A stretch of DNA of 35,795 bases from Candidatus Rokuibacteriota bacterium (GTDB lineage: Bacteria > Methylomirabilota > Methylomirabilia > Rokubacteriales > CSP1-6). The notes below the pieces were generated by a model. It saw only the letters and a program-made list of their open reading frames with translations. It was not told the DNA's origin and made no database searches. The stretch spans positions 1 through 35,795 of the forward strand of contig JACPCF010000063.1 of the NCBI GenBank assembly GCA_016179965.1. Direction: 5' to 3'. The stretch's first letter is position 1. Each line of letters begins with the position of its first letter. Below are positions 9,933 to 23,418 of the stretch, one piece after another. The position numbers and the translations under genes were made by a program.

Positions 9933-10988
9933 TCAGGAGGGACCGAGGACGCGGTGGACTTCCACGTCCTCGAGAATATTCTTCAGGTGCTGGGGGCCGA
10001 GCCTCTCGAGCCGGTAGCGATCCCTTAGGCGCCGCACGGTTTCCGGGCCGGCCAGGATCTGCCCGGGCGCGGCGGCCGCCGCCAGCCGGGCCGCCAGGTT
10101 CGTGACCGACCCGCTGGCCGTGAACGTCCAGCGGGTCCCCCGGAGCCCATCGAAGCGGGTCGAGCCGACCAGGGCCACCCCCGAGTTGATCCCCATGTGC
10201 ACCGAGAGCGGATGTTCGCTGCTTTCCCGGTTGAGCGCTTCGGTGGCGATCAGCAGGCCGAGGGCCGTGTCCGTCGTCGTGGCGGCATGCGCGTCCGGAT
10301 CGGCATCCTGGAAGATGGCCATGAACCCGTCGCCGGCGGTCTCGTTGATGTCGCCGCCGGATTCCTGGATGCGGTTGAGGAACGTGGAGAAGTAGCGCTC
10401 GACCAGCGTATTCAGCGTCTGCGGGGGGAGCCGCTGGCTCAGATCGGCATACCCGCTGATGTCGAGGAATAAGATCGACAGGTCGCGCTCGCGCTTGGCC
10501 AGCTCCGGGGCCGTGGGGTTGGCCGAAACCAGGCGCTTGACGGCCTCGGGCACGAACTTGGCGAAGTGATCCTTGATCCGGTGAAGCTCGCTCATTTTCA
10601 GGTCCACGTTGCTCTTGAGCCGGAGGGCCGTCTCGATGCGCGCGGTCAGCTCCCGCGGGTTGATCGGCTTGGCGAGGTAATCGTCCGCCCCCGCCTCGAT
10701 TCCCTTGATCCGCTCCTCGATCCCATCCAGGGCCGTCATGATGACGATCGGGATCAGGCGGGTCGCCTCGTCGCCCTTCAGGATCCGGCACACCTTGAAG
10801 CCGTCGATGACCGGGATCACGATGTCCAGCAGGATCAGATCCGGCGAGTCGGCCGCGACTTTCTCCAGGGCGTCCCGCCCGTTTGCGGCGCTCACGGTCT
10901 CGTAGCCCAGGCGCTGGAGGTACTCTTCCAGGTAGTCCACAATCATTCGCTCGTCGTCCACGATCAGGATCCGGGGGGGGCGGGTCAC
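9933..10988 (-). CDS. Response regulator receiver-adenylate/guanylate cyclase fusion
   Basis: RILIVDDERMIVDYLEEYL receiver; class III cyclase core LSILFLDISGYADLSQ, GDGFMAIFQDAD, HMGINSGVALVGS. Confidence 0.9.
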   Translation of the reverse strand: MTRPPRILIVDDERMIVDYLEEYLQRLGYETVSAANGRDALEKVAADSPDLILLDIVIPVIDGFKVCRILKGDEATRLIPIVIMTALDGIEERIKGIEAGADDYLAKPINPRELTARIETALRLKSNVDLKMSELHRIKDHFAKFVPEAVKRLVSANPTAPELAKRERDLSILFLDISGYADLSQRLPPQTLNTLVERYFSTFLNRIQESGGDINETAGDGFMAIFQDADPDAHAATTTDTALGLLIATEALNRESSEHPLSVHMGINSGVALVGSTRFDGLRGTRWTFTASGSVTNLAARLAAAAAPGQILAGPETVRRLRDRYRLERLGPQHLKNILEDVEVHRVLGPS

Positions 10989-11845
10989 TTGTAGCGCTCC
11001 CCCAAAGCCATCTGCTCGGTGACGCCGATCAGCTCGTTGAACTCGGCGAAGGGAATGTAGCGGTCGGCGAAGGCCAGGACGTCGTCCTTCGCCTTCACGC
11101 CCGCCAGGAAGGCCTGGATTGCCTTGACTGCCACGAAGAGGGTGTCCACGGGCAGGAGGATGATGGCGTACTCGAGCTCCCGGAGCCGCTTGAAGGGCAG
11201 GAGCGGAGACCGGCCGCCGGGAGCGTAGTTGAAGAGGAGGGGCGTATCGAAGGTCCGGGCCACGGTCTCGATCTGCTGCTCCGACGTGGGGGCCTCCACG
11301 AACAGGATGTCGGCGCCGGCCTTGATCGCCGCCTCGCCGCGGCGGAGGGCGTCGTCGAAACCGGTCACGGCGATGGCGTCGGTGCGGGCGATGATGAGGA
11401 GATCGGGGTCCGTGCGCGCCTCCACCGCCGCCCGGATTTTCTGGGCGAACTCCTCCAGGGGCACCACCTGTTTCCCCGCCAAATGGCCGCAGCGCTTCGG
11501 GAGCATCTGGTCTTCCAGGTGAAGCGCCGCCACCCCGGCCGCCTCGTAGGTCCGCACCGTGCGGCGCACGTTCAGGGCGTTACCGTAGCCCGTGTCGGCG
11601 TCGGCGATCAGCGGGATGCCGACCGCGCTCGCCATGTTGTGGGCGTGGTCCGCCATCTCGGCAAGGCCGGCGAAGCCCAGGTCGGGAAGCCCGAGGCGGG
11701 AGGCGGAGGTCCCGTACCCCGTCATGTACACAACCTGAAAGCCCGCGCGTTCGACCAGCTTGGCCGACACGCAGTCGTACGCGCCCGGCACCACCAGCCC
11801 CTGCTTTCGTTCCACCAACTCGTGAAGCCTTCGTCGCGGATTCAT
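10985..11845 (-). CDS. Isocitrate lyase/PEP mutase family protein
   Basis: LVVPGAYDCVSAKLVERAGF, IPLIADADTGYGN, ALHLEDQMLPKRCGH, IIARTDA. Confidence 0.9.
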   Translation of the reverse strand: MNPRRRLHELVERKQGLVVPGAYDCVSAKLVERAGFQVVYMTGYGTSASRLGLPDLGFAGLAEMADHAHNMASAVGIPLIADADTGYGNALNVRRTVRTYEAAGVAALHLEDQMLPKRCGHLAGKQVVPLEEFAQKIRAAVEARTDPDLLIIARTDAIAVTGFDDALRRGEAAIKAGADILFVEAPTSEQQIETVARTFDTPLLFNYAPGGRSPLLPFKRLRELEYAIILLPVDTLFVAVKAIQAFLAGVKAKDDVLAFADRYIPFAEFNELIGVTEQMALGERYK

Positions 11846-18426: not shown

Positions 18427-19500
18427 ATGCCCCGGACGACCAAGCGCTCCAACGGTCCCGACTCCCAGGCCGACGCCATCGAGGACCTCTACGCGCGGGG
18501 TGTGACCGACGGCCTGCCCGTCGTGCCGCCCACGCTCACCCGCGTGGAGAGGGCGGTCAAGGCGTCCGGGCGGCAGCCGGACGACCTGATCGCCCTGGTG
18601 CCGCCGAATTACGGCCGGGCCACCGTGGAGAAGATCGCGGTGAACGCGGTCATGGCGGGATGCCGGCCCGAGTACCTGCCGGTAGTTATCGCCGGGGTCG
18701 AGGCGATGTGCGACGAGGCTTTCGACCTCCATGGCCTCGGGGGCACCACTAATTCAGCCTCGCCTCTGTTCATTATCAACGGGCCGATCCGGAAGCGCCT
18801 CGACGTCAACTGTGGCGCCGGCGTCTTCGGACCGGGCTGGCGCGCGAACGCGACGATCGGCCGGGCCCTCCGGCTGATCGCCGTCAACCTCGGAGGAGCC
18901 CGTCCGGGGATCATCAGCATGTCCACCCTGGGCCACCCGGGCCGCTACACCTACTGCATCGGTGAAAACGAGGAGGAGAATCCCTGGGAGCCGCTCCACA
19001 TCGAGCACGGGTTCCCGCCGTCGGAGAGCACCGTGGCCGCCTTCGCGGGGGAGCCCGCCCTTGAGATCTACGACCACCGGAGCCGGGCCGCCAAGGATCT
19101 CCTGGCTACCATCGCCCGGAGCGTGGAGGTGATCTGGCACCACAAAGCCACCGCCCTCGGCGATACGCTCATCGTCCTGTCCCCCGAGCACGCCCGTACC
19201 ATCGCCGGAGACGGCTGGTCGAAGGCCGACATCCGGCGCTTCCTCTGGGAGCGCCTCCGGAAGCCGGTGAAGGACCTGCTGCCGGGCAGGGACGGTGGCG
19301 AGGGGCTCCCCGAGCACGTCCTGGCGAAGATCCCGAGCCCGGAAACCGACGAGACGCTGATCCCAAAGTTCCGCGCGCCCGAGCATCTCAAGATTCTGGT
19401 GGCCGGGGGGACGGCGGGGCGCTTTTCGGCGGTGATTCCCGGCTGGACGTTCCCCAACGGCTCGAACCTGGTGATCAAGAAGATCCAGATGCACGAGTGA
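18427..19500 (+). CDS. Uncharacterised partner protein of UGSC selenoprotein
   Basis: 357-aa ORF ending 12 bp before the UGSC gene; a degraded paralogue follows at 20063. Confidence 0.75.
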   Translation: MPRTTKRSNGPDSQADAIEDLYARGVTDGLPVVPPTLTRVERAVKASGRQPDDLIALVPPNYGRATVEKIAVNAVMAGCRPEYLPVVIAGVEAMCDEAFDLHGLGGTTNSASPLFIINGPIRKRLDVNCGAGVFGPGWRANATIGRALRLIAVNLGGARPGIISMSTLGHPGRYTYCIGENEEENPWEPLHIEHGFPPSESTVAAFAGEPALEIYDHRSRAAKDLLATIARSVEVIWHHKATALGDTLIVLSPEHARTIAGDGWSKADIRRFLWERLRKPVKDLLPGRDGGEGLPEHVLAKIPSPETDETLIPKFRAPEHLKILVAGGTAGRFSAVIPGWTFPNGSNLVIKKIQMHE

Positions 19501-19512
19501 GGGAGGAAAATC

Positions 19513-20040
19513 ATGCCGAAGGACGATCTTTACCTGGATCCCACCGACTCGGTGGCTGTGCCGCGGAAGACTGCTCAGCGGCCGGCGACACTCGACGGCA
19601 AGGTGGTCACGCTCCTCGACATCTCCAAGGCCAAGGGGGATCACCTCCTCGACCGCATTGAGGAGCTGCTCCGGGAGCGCGCCAAGCCCAAGGCGATCCT
19701 CCGCCGGAAGAAGCCGACCTTTGCCCGCCCGGCGCCCGATGACCTCCGGCAGCAGATCCTGAAGGAGAGCCACGTCGTCATCGAAGGTCTGGCCGACTGA
19801 GGGTCGTGCACAACGTGCAGTGTGCACGACGGCGTGTTCTTCGAGGATCAGGGGCTCCCGACGGCGACGGTGATCTCTTCGGAGTTCGTGAAGGCGGCGC
19901 GGGCTCAAGCCGACGCGCTTGGTGCGCGGGAGTACCGGCCGGTGGTGGTCCCGCACCCGATCCAGCCGCTCACGCGCGAGGAGGTGCGGCTCCTGGCCGA
20001 CAAGGCCATTGACGAGATCCTCGCCCGCCTGACCCGGTAG
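19513..20040 (+). CDS. UGSC-type selenoprotein (in-frame TGA at 19798..19800 = Sec96)
   Basis: ORFs 19513..19800 and 19822..20040 share a frame; joined reading ...VVIEGLAD-U-GSCTTCSVHDGVFFEDQGLPTATVISSEFVKAARAQ...; RBS GGAGG. Confidence 0.85.
19803..19830 (+). promoter_or_regulatory. Candidate bacterial SECIS stem-loop
   Basis: GTCGTGCACA-ACGTGCAG-TGTGCACGAC, perfect 10-bp stem beginning 2 nt after the TGA. Confidence 0.65.
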
Positions 20041-20062: not shown

Positions 20063-20284
20063 GTGCCCCGGACAACGAGGCGCCCCAGCCGGTCCGGCTC
20101 GGAGGCGGATCCCATCGAGGACCTCCCTGTGGTGATCGCCGGCGTCGAAGTTCCGCGCGCGGGAGAACCTGAAGGTCCTCGTGGCCGGGGGGACGGCGGG
20201 GCGCTTCACGGCGGTCGTGGCAGCTGGCCGTTCGCCAACGCGCCCTCGAGCCTGGTGATCAAGAAGATCCGGTTCCCGTCCTAG
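20063..20284 (+). pseudogene. Internally deleted paralogue of 18427..19500
   Basis: N-term PRTTRRPSRSGSEADPIEDL, middle PVVIAGVE, then KFRARENLKVLVAGGTAGRFTAV (other frame) and SSLVIKKI, each matching separated parts of 18427..19500. Confidence 0.8.
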
Positions 20285-20781
20285 GCCAGGCGCCAGACGC
20301 GGCCCTGGGGTGGCTCGTCGGTCAGGGTGAACTGGGGCAGCGCGATCTCCGGCGACAGGTCCTGGAAGAGGACGCGGACGCGCTTGCCGATGGCGACGTG
20401 CTCCTCGCGCTCCGGCGTGAAATCCGGCTTCACCAGGTTGGCGATCATGCGGAGCCCCTCGTCGGGCGTCGGGCTGCCCCGCTGCTCGTCCAGCTCGACC
20501 AGCACCACGGGGTAGGGCGCCCAGTCCCTGAAGCCGGGCTGGATCGCCTGGACCACGATCTCGTAGGAGTGGATCGTCCCCTTGCCGCTCACCTCCTGCC
20601 ACGACCAGCCGAGGTCGCCGCACCAGGGGCAGCCGTGGCTCGGCGGATAGCGTAAAAGCCCGCAGGCCGCGCACTTCCTCATGACGAGTTTGTGCTCGCG
20701 TGCCGTTTTCACGTATTCGCGCCACTCGGAATCGTTCTCCGGCACGATCAGGTTCATCCCGCGGTACTCAACGTTCGGCAT
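20281..20781 (-). CDS. Zn-ribbon/OB-fold (DUF35-type) acyl-CoA-associated protein
   Basis: RKCAACGLLRYPPSHGCPWCG zinc ribbon; KGTIHSYEIVVQ...PYPVVLVELDEQRG. Confidence 0.85.
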   Translation of the reverse strand: MPNVEYRGMNLIVPENDSEWREYVKTAREHKLVMRKCAACGLLRYPPSHGCPWCGDLGWSWQEVSGKGTIHSYEIVVQAIQPGFRDWAPYPVVLVELDEQRGSPTPDEGLRMIANLVKPDFTPEREEHVAIGKRVRVLFQDLSPEIALPQFTLTDEPPQGRVWRLA

Positions 20782-20786
20782 CCGTC

Positions 20787-21941
20787 TTATCCCCGGCGCT
20801 GGGTGAAGCGACGGCCGAGGATCTCGGCCGCGATCAGATTCCGCATAGCCTGGACCGTCCCGCCGCCGATCGTGAACATGCGGACGTCGCGGAGCATCCG
20901 CTCGAGCGGCAGCTCCCGCGAGTAGCCGTCGCCGCCAAACACCTGGAGCGCCTGGCTCGTCACCTCGATGGCGCTCTCGGCGGCGAACGTCTTCGCGAGG
21001 GCGGCCTCGAATTTGTCCGGGAGGCCGTCGCCGGCGTTGACGGCGGCCCGGTGGATGAGCAGGCGGGAGGCCTCGAGCTTCAGGATCATGTCGGCTAGCA
21101 TCCACTGGATCCCCTGGAACTCGCAGATCTCCCGGCCGAACTGTCGCCGCGTCTTGGAGAAGGCGAGCGCCTCCTCATAGGCGCCCTGGGCGATCCCCAG
21201 GGCCACGGTGGCGGCGCCGAGGCGCTGGGCGTTGTAGGCCGCCATCAGCTTGCCGAAGCCGTCCTTGCCCACGACCAGGTTGTCGGCCGGGACCTCGCAG
21301 TTCTTGAAGATGAGCATCCCCTCCGGGATCCCGCGGAGCCCGAGCGTGGGGATCCGCGGCCCCAGCGTGAAGCCCGGTGCCCCCCGCTCCACGACGAGGG
21401 CGCCGATCCCCAGGTCGCCGCCGGCCTCGACCAGGCGGCAGAAGACCAGGTGGAGGTGGGAGATGCCCGCCCCGGTGATCCAGCGCTTGGTCCCGTTGAG
21501 GATCCAGCGGTCGCCTTTCCGCACCGCGGTCGCGGCCATGTCCGTCGCCGCCGTCCCCGCCTCGGGCTCCGTGATGCAGATCGCCGGCTTATCACCCTCG
21601 ACGACCTTCGGCAGCCAGCGCCGCTTCTGGGCGTCCGTCGCGTAGTGGACGACGGCCGACACGACGCCGAGGTTCGCGTCCACCACGATCCGTCCCGAGA
21701 TGCCGCACGCCTTGGCCACCTCCTCGATGACCAGGACCGTGTCGAAGATCGTGCGCTCGGCGCCGCCGTAGGCTTTGGGCACCGTCATCCCCATGAAGCC
21801 GGCCTCGACGAGGTCCTTGACGTTCTCCCAGGGGTACTCCTCCGTCTGGTCCCAGCGGGGCGCCCGTCCGCGGAAGGTCTCGGCAAGCTCGCGCGCCCGG
21901 GCCTTCAAGGCCTTCTGCTCGGACGAAAGAGGATAGCTCAT
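20787..21941 (-). CDS. Acyl-CoA dehydrogenase
   Basis: AICITEPEAGTAATDMAATAVRKGDRWILNGTKRWITGAG; QVFGGDGYSRELPLERMLRDVR. Confidence 0.95.
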   Translation of the reverse strand: MSYPLSSEQKALKARARELAETFRGRAPRWDQTEEYPWENVKDLVEAGFMGMTVPKAYGGAERTIFDTVLVIEEVAKACGISGRIVVDANLGVVSAVVHYATDAQKRRWLPKVVEGDKPAICITEPEAGTAATDMAATAVRKGDRWILNGTKRWITGAGISHLHLVFCRLVEAGGDLGIGALVVERGAPGFTLGPRIPTLGLRGIPEGMLIFKNCEVPADNLVVGKDGFGKLMAAYNAQRLGAATVALGIAQGAYEEALAFSKTRRQFGREICEFQGIQWMLADMILKLEASRLLIHRAAVNAGDGLPDKFEAALAKTFAAESAIEVTSQALQVFGGDGYSRELPLERMLRDVRMFTIGGGTVQAMRNLIAAEILGRRFTQRRG

Positions 21942-22183
21942 CGTCGTTTCTCCTCCGGGGCCCCGGCCCGGGGCTGGATCCAGACGTGATCGCCGCGGGG
22001 CAGGAGCCGCTCGGCGCGCTCCGGGTCACCCGCGCGGAAGCACTCCTCGATCAACCTCTCGTGGAAGACGTCCCGCTGCGCGCGGCTCCCGCCGATCTCG
22101 ATGATGCGCGGTCTCAGCGGCTCGATGAGCTGGATCGTCCGGGACGTCGCCGTGACCGACAGACCGTACGCGTCAGCCGGCAT
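21938..22183 (-). CDS. Small uncharacterised protein (81 aa) coupled to acyl-CoA dehydrogenase
   Basis: 4-bp overlap with the next start; MPADAYGLSVTATSRTIQLIEPLRPRIIEIGG... Confidence 0.55.
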   Translation of the reverse strand: MPADAYGLSVTATSRTIQLIEPLRPRIIEIGGSRAQRDVFHERLIEECFRAGDPERAERLLPRGDHVWIQPRAGAPEEKRR

Positions 22184-22203
22184 GGCGCGGATGATAGCAC
22201 ATT

Positions 22204-23418
22204 CTAGCGCCGCAGGATGAGGGCGGAGCCGGTGGCCGGCGTGGACCAGCCGAGGTTCATGGCGATCTCGGCGTCCTCCACCTGCCGGCATTTCCCGGGT
22301 GAGTAGTCGTAGGAGTGCTTCCCCTCCGCCCACCCCGGGCAGTAGTCGTCGGCGGTTCCCCGGAGCTGGCGGACGTTTTCGATCACCAGGTTCATCCCGT
22401 GCGTGTACGCCTCGCAGAGGTGGCCGCCCGAGGTGTTGTTGGGGCGCGCGCCGCCGAGCTCGATGCTCCCGCTGGAGACGTAGGCGCCGCCCTCCCCCTT
22501 CTTGCAGAAGCCGTACTCCTCCAGCTGGAGCAGGGTGGTGAAGGTGAAGGCGTCGTAGGAGCCGGTGAGGTCCACGTCCTCGGGGCCGATGCCGGCCATG
22601 GGAAAGACGATGTCCTTGGCGTAGTAGCCCGCCACGCGGCTGATGGGGCCGTGGGCGAAGTGGAAGTCGGTCCGCGGCTTCGACACGCGCCCCGCGACCC
22701 CCATGATGTGGATCGGTCGCTGCCGGAGGTCCCGGGCCCGCTCGGCCGAGGTGACGATCAGGCAGGTGGCGTTGTCGGTCTCCACGCAGCAGTCGAGGAG
22801 GTGGAGCGGCTTGACGATCCAGCGCGAGTTGAGGACGTCCTCCACGGTGACGCGCTCCTTGTGGAGCGCCTTGGGATTCTGGGAGGCGTGCGTGGAGTGG
22901 GCCACCTTGACGTGGGCGACCTGCTCCGAGGTGGTGCCGTAGTCGTACATGTGGCGCATGAACGTGGGGGCGAAGTTCTGCCCGGCGCTCGTCATCCCGT
23001 AGGGGCGCCAGGCCAGCTCCTGGCCGCGCACCGGCGCCGCGGCGCGGGTCCCCGTCCCCCCGATCCGCACCTCGGTGTAGCCGTTCATGGAGCGGAAGAT
23101 CGCCACCGTCCGGCACAGGCCGACCTCGATGGCGCCCATGGCGAGGCCGATCAGGGCTTCGGTGCTCGATCCCCCGCCGACCACGTCCATCCAGAAGTTG
23201 AGCCTGATCGCCAGATCCGGGCCGACGATCAGCGACGGCGTGGAGTCGTTGCCCTGGTAGGACATCATCCCGTCCACGTCCTTGGGGCCGAGCCCTGCGT
23301 CGTCCATGGCCTTCCGGATCGCCTCCACGGCCATGGCCCGTGTCGTGCGGCCCGAATTCCGGCTGTACTCCGTCTCGCCGACTCCCACGACGCAGTACCG
23401 GTCTTTCAGGGTTCCCAT
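22204..23418 (-). CDS. Thiolase family protein (lipid-transfer/acetyl-CoA acetyltransferase type)
   Basis: VVGVGETEYSRNSGRTTRAMAVEAIRKAMDDAGL; GGGSSTEALIGLAMGAI; NTSGGHLCEAYTHGMNLVIENVRQLRG. Confidence 0.9.
   Translation of the reverse strand: MGTLKDRYCVVGVGETEYSRNSGRTTRAMAVEAIRKAMDDAGLGPKDVDGMMSYQGNDSTPSLIVGPDLAIRLNFWMDVVGGGSSTEALIGLAMGAIEVGLCRTVAIFRSMNGYTEVRIGGTGTRAAAPVRGQELAWRPYGMTSAGQNFAPTFMRHMYDYGTTSEQVAHVKVAHSTHASQNPKALHKERVTVEDVLNSRWIVKPLHLLDCCVETDNATCLIVTSAERARDLRQRPIHIMGVAGRVSKPRTDFHFAHGPISRVAGYYAKDIVFPMAGIGPEDVDLTGSYDAFTFTTLLQLEEYGFCKKGEGGAYVSSGSIELGGARPNNTSGGHLCEAYTHGMNLVIENVRQLRGTADDYCPGWAEGKHSYDYSPGKCRQVEDAEIAMNLGWSTPATGSALILRR

Follow-up and report, generated by a model that had tools for sequence, protein, structure and literature searches.

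A UGSC-family selenoprotein gene of Candidatus Rokuibacteriota with an in-frame TGA, a conserved partner gene and a remote profile match to GrdB/PrdB

The open reading frames at 19513-19800 and 19822-20040 of the window (the whole stretch of DNA analysed, 35,795 nucleotides from a Candidatus Rokuibacteriota bacterium) are, as judged by sequence comparison, one true selenoprotein gene of 175 codons. This gene is a new member of the UGSC family, which has been known since 2008 (GOS). The initial annotation had proposed a single selenoprotein gene, and this view is refined here, as the UGSC gene makes up a module together with a second gene. Taking all the evidence together, the best explanation is that the Sec-decoded UGSC protein and its partner probably form a two-component, thioredoxin-fed selenol reductase of the GrdB type. 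The features of the UGSC gene are as follows.

19513-20040, plus strand: UGSC-family selenoprotein gene, 175 amino acids, from ATG to TAG, with a single internal TGA.
19798-19800, plus strand: codon TGA of Sec96, found as TGA in 41/41 relatives covering this position and in each of the six UGSC genes of the same genome, and as a Cys codon in the Cys forms.
19814-19828, plus strand: apical hairpin of a bacterial SECIS, CGUGCA-GUG-UGCACG, identified from a synonymous freeze, covariation and the offset known from fdhF.

Both open reading frames were present as had been claimed, the first with 95 amino acids from ATG and the second with 72 amino acids from GTG, in one frame with an offset of 309 and separated by the TGA and seven sense codons. 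Reading the TGA as Sec gives a 175-aa protein with U96-G-S-C-T-T-C that closes at the TAG. Standard gene calling returned the two frames separately, in line with the expectation that ordinary gene callers would split the gene. The joined protein matched Pfam PF24696 (E 2.1e-50, 171.6 bits, cut-off 25) and NCBIfam NF041046 (164.3 bits, cut-off 125), and because one family model matches from end to end, across the TGA (residues 8-174 of 175), the joined frames are not a product of chance. The active-site motif U/C-G-S-C, present here as U96-G-S-C, was invariant in a 27-sequence alignment. This core of the proposed motif U-G-S-C-T-T-C was thus upheld, and the third Cys of "CTTC" was not, with paralogues carrying TSW or SSG.

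The environmental family named in the initial annotation is the UGSC-containing family of the GOS survey (PMC2398784), where it was among the most abundant environmental selenoprotein families. The window gene resembles this family (PF24696, NF041046) in that the whole protein passes the curated cut-offs and carries both the UGSC motif and a SECIS; nothing basic differs, and the Rokubacterial set is expanded, this genome having six paralogues and a relative as many as twelve. A 2026 review still lists the family without a known function. UGSC genes were not found in the viral and phage collections.

The exact TGA codon was found in 41/41 homologous loci of other genomes that cover the site, with the frame kept on both sides. 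These loci include Myxococcales, Hydrogenedentota, Burkholderiaceae and marine proteobacteria, and the nearest relatives of the window gene are in Candidatus Rokuibacteriota/Methylomirabilota MAGs. Six UGSC genes (the window gene and five paralogues) are present in the same genome, all with the TGA. Within the phylum, 72/95 genomes have the family, with the TGA in all matches listed; in the 12 genomes that were searched fully, 60/67 matches have one TGA, and the other seven are weak (<=48 bits) and mostly partial. Homologues with Cys at this position have GDCGSC (Halorientalis, Natrinema, Halalkalicoccus, Arthrobacter and Roseovarius) or ADCGSC (Embleya). The homologues spanning the TGA carry either U, in 41/41 loci, or C, in the Cys forms of haloarchaea, Arthrobacter, Roseovarius and Embleya, the usual Sec/Cys exchange.

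The genome (2.99 Mb, 92% complete) contains the Sec machinery that the initial annotation had proposed to look for, with tRNA-Sec, selA, selB and selD all present. The tRNA-Sec gene is on contig 34 (59.4 bits, cut-off 47; ARAGORN anticodon tca), selA and selB are 1.3 kb beyond it, and selD is itself a TGA gene for a Sec-containing SelD with the motif CAGUASK. An in-frame TGA by itself would also suit a variant code that assigns TGA to Trp, Gly or Cys throughout the genome. However, TGA is used as an ordinary stop, as the partner gene of the same operon ends in TGA and most UGSC orthologues close with TGA while the internal TGA stays; tRNA-Sec and SelB are present, and homologues without the TGA have Cys there, not Trp or Gly. 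Genome-wide reassignment in place of site-specific Sec is therefore extremely improbable.

Site-specific decoding is also supported by the sequence directly downstream of the TGA, where the suggested search for a SECIS yielded a hairpin with covariation. No synonymous difference at all was seen at codons +5 to +11 past the TGA across 32 Rokubacterial orthologues, compared with mean synonymous changes of 0.34 upstream of the TGA and 0.38 past codon +14. All 32 orthologues use AGT for the Ser at +7; AGT makes up 2.8% of the Ser codons of the adjacent partner genes and does not occur among the other Ser codons of the UGSC gene that were counted. In 28 orthologues and paralogues, stem columns 15-22 and 26-33 are paired in 94% of cells, with compensatory exchanges of C21-G27 to G-C in 9 sequences and of U19-A29 to G-U/A-U in 6, and the covariation score of the stem was matched by 0/500 shuffles. 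The loop G-U is located at +22/+23 from the U of the UGA. The E. coli fdhF SECIS (taken from the E. coli genome) likewise has its hairpin directly past the UGA with the loop G-U at +22/+23, and differs in stem sequence, the window hairpin consisting of a six-base-pair stem with GUG as its loop. In the Cys forms, the stem is partly kept, presumably due to amino-acid constraint, and the AGT and the loop G-U are lost. The longer stem GUCGUGCACA/UGUGCACGAC, which is the lowest-energy fold of the window, was rejected as the SECIS; it is broken by TCC/TCT codons in the relatives L034, L035, L041 and L049, and for this reason the inner hairpin was taken as the SECIS. Rfam gave nothing above the gathering score at this site.

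A real stop at the TGA, whether in a pseudogene, a split gene or a sequencing or assembly error, would agree with the two frames returned by standard gene calling and with the true decay of a neighbouring partner copy (20063-20284). This explanation is scarcely credible, given that 41 loci of other genomes and five paralogues share this TGA, that frozen synonymous sites and a covarying stem follow it, and that the Sec machinery of the genome is complete. Family models, TGA conservation, Sec machinery and SECIS covariation all support the original reading of the gene as a UGSC selenoprotein, and of the two findings that the initial annotation named as refuting it, neither was made.

The GOS paper gives a likely Trx-like fold for UGSC (PMC2398784), which we compared with a predicted structure. 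The AlphaFold model (27 sequences, Sec modelled as Cys) has a mean pLDDT of 89.5 and shows an alternating beta-alpha sheet in which U96 opens the helix 97-112. This predicted fold does not have the thioredoxin topology (beta-alpha-beta-alpha-beta-beta-alpha, with CxxC at the first core helix). The PDB fold search with UGSC gave generic alpha/beta matches, with no thioredoxin among the matches listed, and the PDB sequence search with the UGSC profile gave nothing significant.

Profile comparison pointed instead to the GrdB family. In hhalign, the UGSC profile matched same-phylum GrdB-family proteins, which are TGA genes themselves, with prob 95.6, P 1.1e-8 and a score of 61.8 over 94 columns reaching the C-terminus; the match with PrdB-like proteins alone was weaker (prob 34, P 4e-4). 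As controls, 100 column shuffles reached a maximum of 22.9 and the reversed profile 25.4; the shuffles were restricted to well-filled columns, as one absurd score of 132.9 arose when gap-rich columns were included. Both families have a signature of identical spacing, UGxC-x(11)-E-x-x-G-[IL]-P. The UGSC genes were absent from the PF07355 (GRDB) matches of their own genome, and a Pfam scan of UGSC at E 10 gave the UGSC model and no GRDB. UGSC thus does not belong to Pfam GRDB, and by profile comparison it is remotely homologous to the half of GrdB/PrdB that bears the Sec. That UGSC is not thioredoxin-like and is instead a remote GrdB/PrdB homologue is possibly new.

A thioredoxin-like redox protein, such as a peroxidase or a general disulfide reductase, would be consistent with the UxxC redox motif, the thioredoxin genes found as neighbours and the fold stated in PMC2398784. 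We consider this improbable, because the predicted sheet is unlike thioredoxin, no thioredoxin was among the listed fold matches, the profile match goes to GrdB/PrdB, and six paralogues with catabolic neighbours suit a substrate-specific enzyme better. UGSC has the UxxC motif in common with the thioredoxin-like UxxC selenoproteins (GOS Trx-like, Prx-like), but its predicted fold differs and thioredoxin is present as a separate domain or a neighbour. The GrdB/PrdB relation, the partner and the fused thioredoxin domain described below speak against the assumed thioredoxin-like fold.

In glycine and proline reductases, the Sec of GrdA/GrdB/PrdB and a thioredoxin-type electron supply are established (PMC13188914). 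UGSC resembles GrdB/PrdB (PF07355) in the remotely homologous Sec-bearing half, where the UGxC and G-[IL]-P motifs are equally spaced. Like the GrdB/PrdB of glycine/betaine/sarcosine and D-proline reductases, it is encoded as a pair with a partner gene upstream and has thioredoxin as the likely electron source. In contrast to GrdB/PrdB, it is half as long, has no direct Pfam GRDB match, has a partner unlike GrdE in sequence, and also occurs as a Cys form in haloarchaea, actinobacteria and a roseobacter.

Separate GrdB-like genes were also observed. The same genome has two PrdB/GrdB-like selenoprotein candidates, L155 (G000:C151:17326-17754) with an in-frame TGA at PVUPVCHQS and L156 (G000:C46:11717-12097) with one at PVUQLCHQS, and the TGA is also present in 12 relatives. 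In the phylum Methylomirabilota, pairs of GrdE-like (PF09338) and full-length GrdB-like (PF07355) genes with TGA active sites were found in many Rokubacteria (L135-L153 and L169-L183). Several Rokubacterial GrdB-like active sites have UGTS, UGTG or UGSG in place of UGTC.

The partner gene and a remnant of a second copy flank the UGSC gene as follows.

18427-19500, plus strand: partner gene, 357 amino acids, matched by no family model of Pfam or NCBIfam, with its stop 12 nt 5' of the UGSC start and a GGAGG ribosome-binding site between them.
20063-20284, plus strand: decayed fragments of a further partner-gene copy in tandem, with the N-terminal 21 aa, then the C-terminal ~24 aa and a shifted tail.

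The partner adjoins UGSC or is fused with it in nearly every locus that has enough flank, including the Rokubacterial orthologues, the paralogues of the same genome, distant Sec forms and 9/9 plasmid loci read. It is also present beside Cys-form UGSC genes in haloarchaea, and two of these loci have a partner copy on either side of UGSC. No partner was seen in L034, a locus that holds 336 N. A PDB sequence search with the partner profile gave nothing significant, and the partner was rejected as a homologue of GrdE (PF09338; prob 0.1 against 14 GrdE-like proteins) and as a relative of class I fumarases (a weak fold match, E 3.7e-4, TM 0.3). Its residues C79 and C177 are near-invariant, yet they are not kept in all paralogues. 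The GOS paper described UGSC fused to a conserved domain, "Unknown_1" (PMC2398784), which may be the 357-aa partner family; the association of UGSC with this family is possibly new. The decayed copy is directly 3' of UGSC, where haloarchaeal loci hold an intact second copy, and was located by tblastn of the partner against the window (20148-20219, 79%, E 4.6e-7; 20063-20125, 57%, E 0.034).

Thioredoxin is linked to this module in two ways. The partner proteins of Myxococcales, Hydrogenedentota and proteobacteria have an N-terminal CPTC domain that matches solved thioredoxins (E 1e-5). Among the Cys forms, Arthrobacter has the gene order trxB-trxA-partner-UGSC and Roseovarius the order partner-UGSC-trxB. 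The fused thioredoxin domain and the trxA/trxB neighbours are possibly new as well. The partner of Rokubacteria is without the fused domain, and thioredoxin is assumed to be their electron donor. Neither the GrdB relation nor the partner/thioredoxin module turned up in the literature searched, and the papers by Haft (J Bacteriol 2023, mSystems 2025) may mention part of them.

The following mechanism is proposed for the GrdB-type reductase. As shown by comparative evidence, the UGA at 19798-19800 is read as Sec by SelB/tRNA-Sec at the SECIS directly downstream. The UGSC protein, by its profile homology, would be the subunit that provides the catalytic selenol in a reductase of two components, and the 357-aa upstream partner, with its genomic association, probably holds or presents the substrate. 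The selenolate of Sec96 at the helix N-terminus would attack the bound organic substrate, the oxidised Sec96 would form a selenenyl-sulfide with Cys99, and thioredoxin/thioredoxin reductase would reduce this again. These last steps are proposed from the UxxC motif, from the distant taxa whose partner protein has a fused thioredoxin domain, and from the trxA/trxB neighbours of the Cys forms. No report of enzyme activity for any UGSC protein was found in the literature searched, and we therefore infer both substrate and reaction. With its relation to GrdB/PrdB, its near-constant partner and the thioredoxin domain fused to that partner, a family described without function becomes a concrete enzyme system.

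The two subunits could also have their roles exchanged, with UGSC serving in electron transfer or as a redox relay and the true catalytic centre, hydratase/lyase-like for example, lying in the partner. The partner is the larger and well-conserved protein, it weakly resembles class I fumarases in fold (E 3.7e-4, TM 0.3), and C79 and C177 are near-invariant. Nevertheless, this arrangement is unlikely, as the GrdB/PrdB relation puts the Sec of UGSC near the substrate, the fumarase match is low in TM-score, and the two cysteines are missing from some paralogues.

Conservation of the neighbourhood was analyzed by tblastn with chosen window proteins around the orthologue loci. A thiolase and a zinc-ribbon/OB-fold (ChsH2-like) protein were each found near UGSC in 21 orthologue loci, and also in three marine proteobacterial loci. 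Cys-form neighbourhoods contain recurring CoA-transferases, TRAP components and lyases. In the window, the minus strand at 20281-23418 encodes an OB-fold/zinc-ribbon protein, an acyl-CoA dehydrogenase and a thiolase, and a PEP-mutase/isocitrate-lyase family gene is located at 10985-11845, with relatives near UGSC in L125, L129 and L023, a paralogue locus of the same genome. As far as gene content can indicate, this context argues for a catabolic role, with small organic compounds as substrates, over one in defence against oxidative stress, and the neighbours (acyl-CoA dehydrogenase, thiolase, CoA-transferase, PEP-mutase-like lyase and TRAP/TTT uptake) suggest breakdown of small organic acids or amines. 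The six paralogues in one genome suggest several substrates. More tentatively, UGSC and its partner could represent a class of reductive-cleavage enzymes, widespread and undescribed, that are driven by thioredoxin and are evolutionary relatives of glycine and D-proline reductases with a different substrate subunit and with paralogues for different substrates, in bacteria and Cys-form haloarchaea, including aerobes.

The analysis also exposed an annotation problem, namely UGSC genes cut at the TGA. Standard gene calling would cut six active-site genes of this one genome at the TGA, and one real case is on a plasmid of Acidovorax. The IncP plasmid NZ_CP021650.1 of Acidovorax sp. T1 carries a Sec-type UGSC gene (L125 5923-6213) annotated as the truncated hypothetical protein WP_087748617.1, which ends at the Sec TGA, and this TGA is followed by a fully paired SECIS-type hairpin. 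A divergent relative of UGSC, in which CSTC replaces U/CGSC, was found on a plasmid of Neorhizobium galegae (L131 5917-6939), adjoined by a divergent partner.
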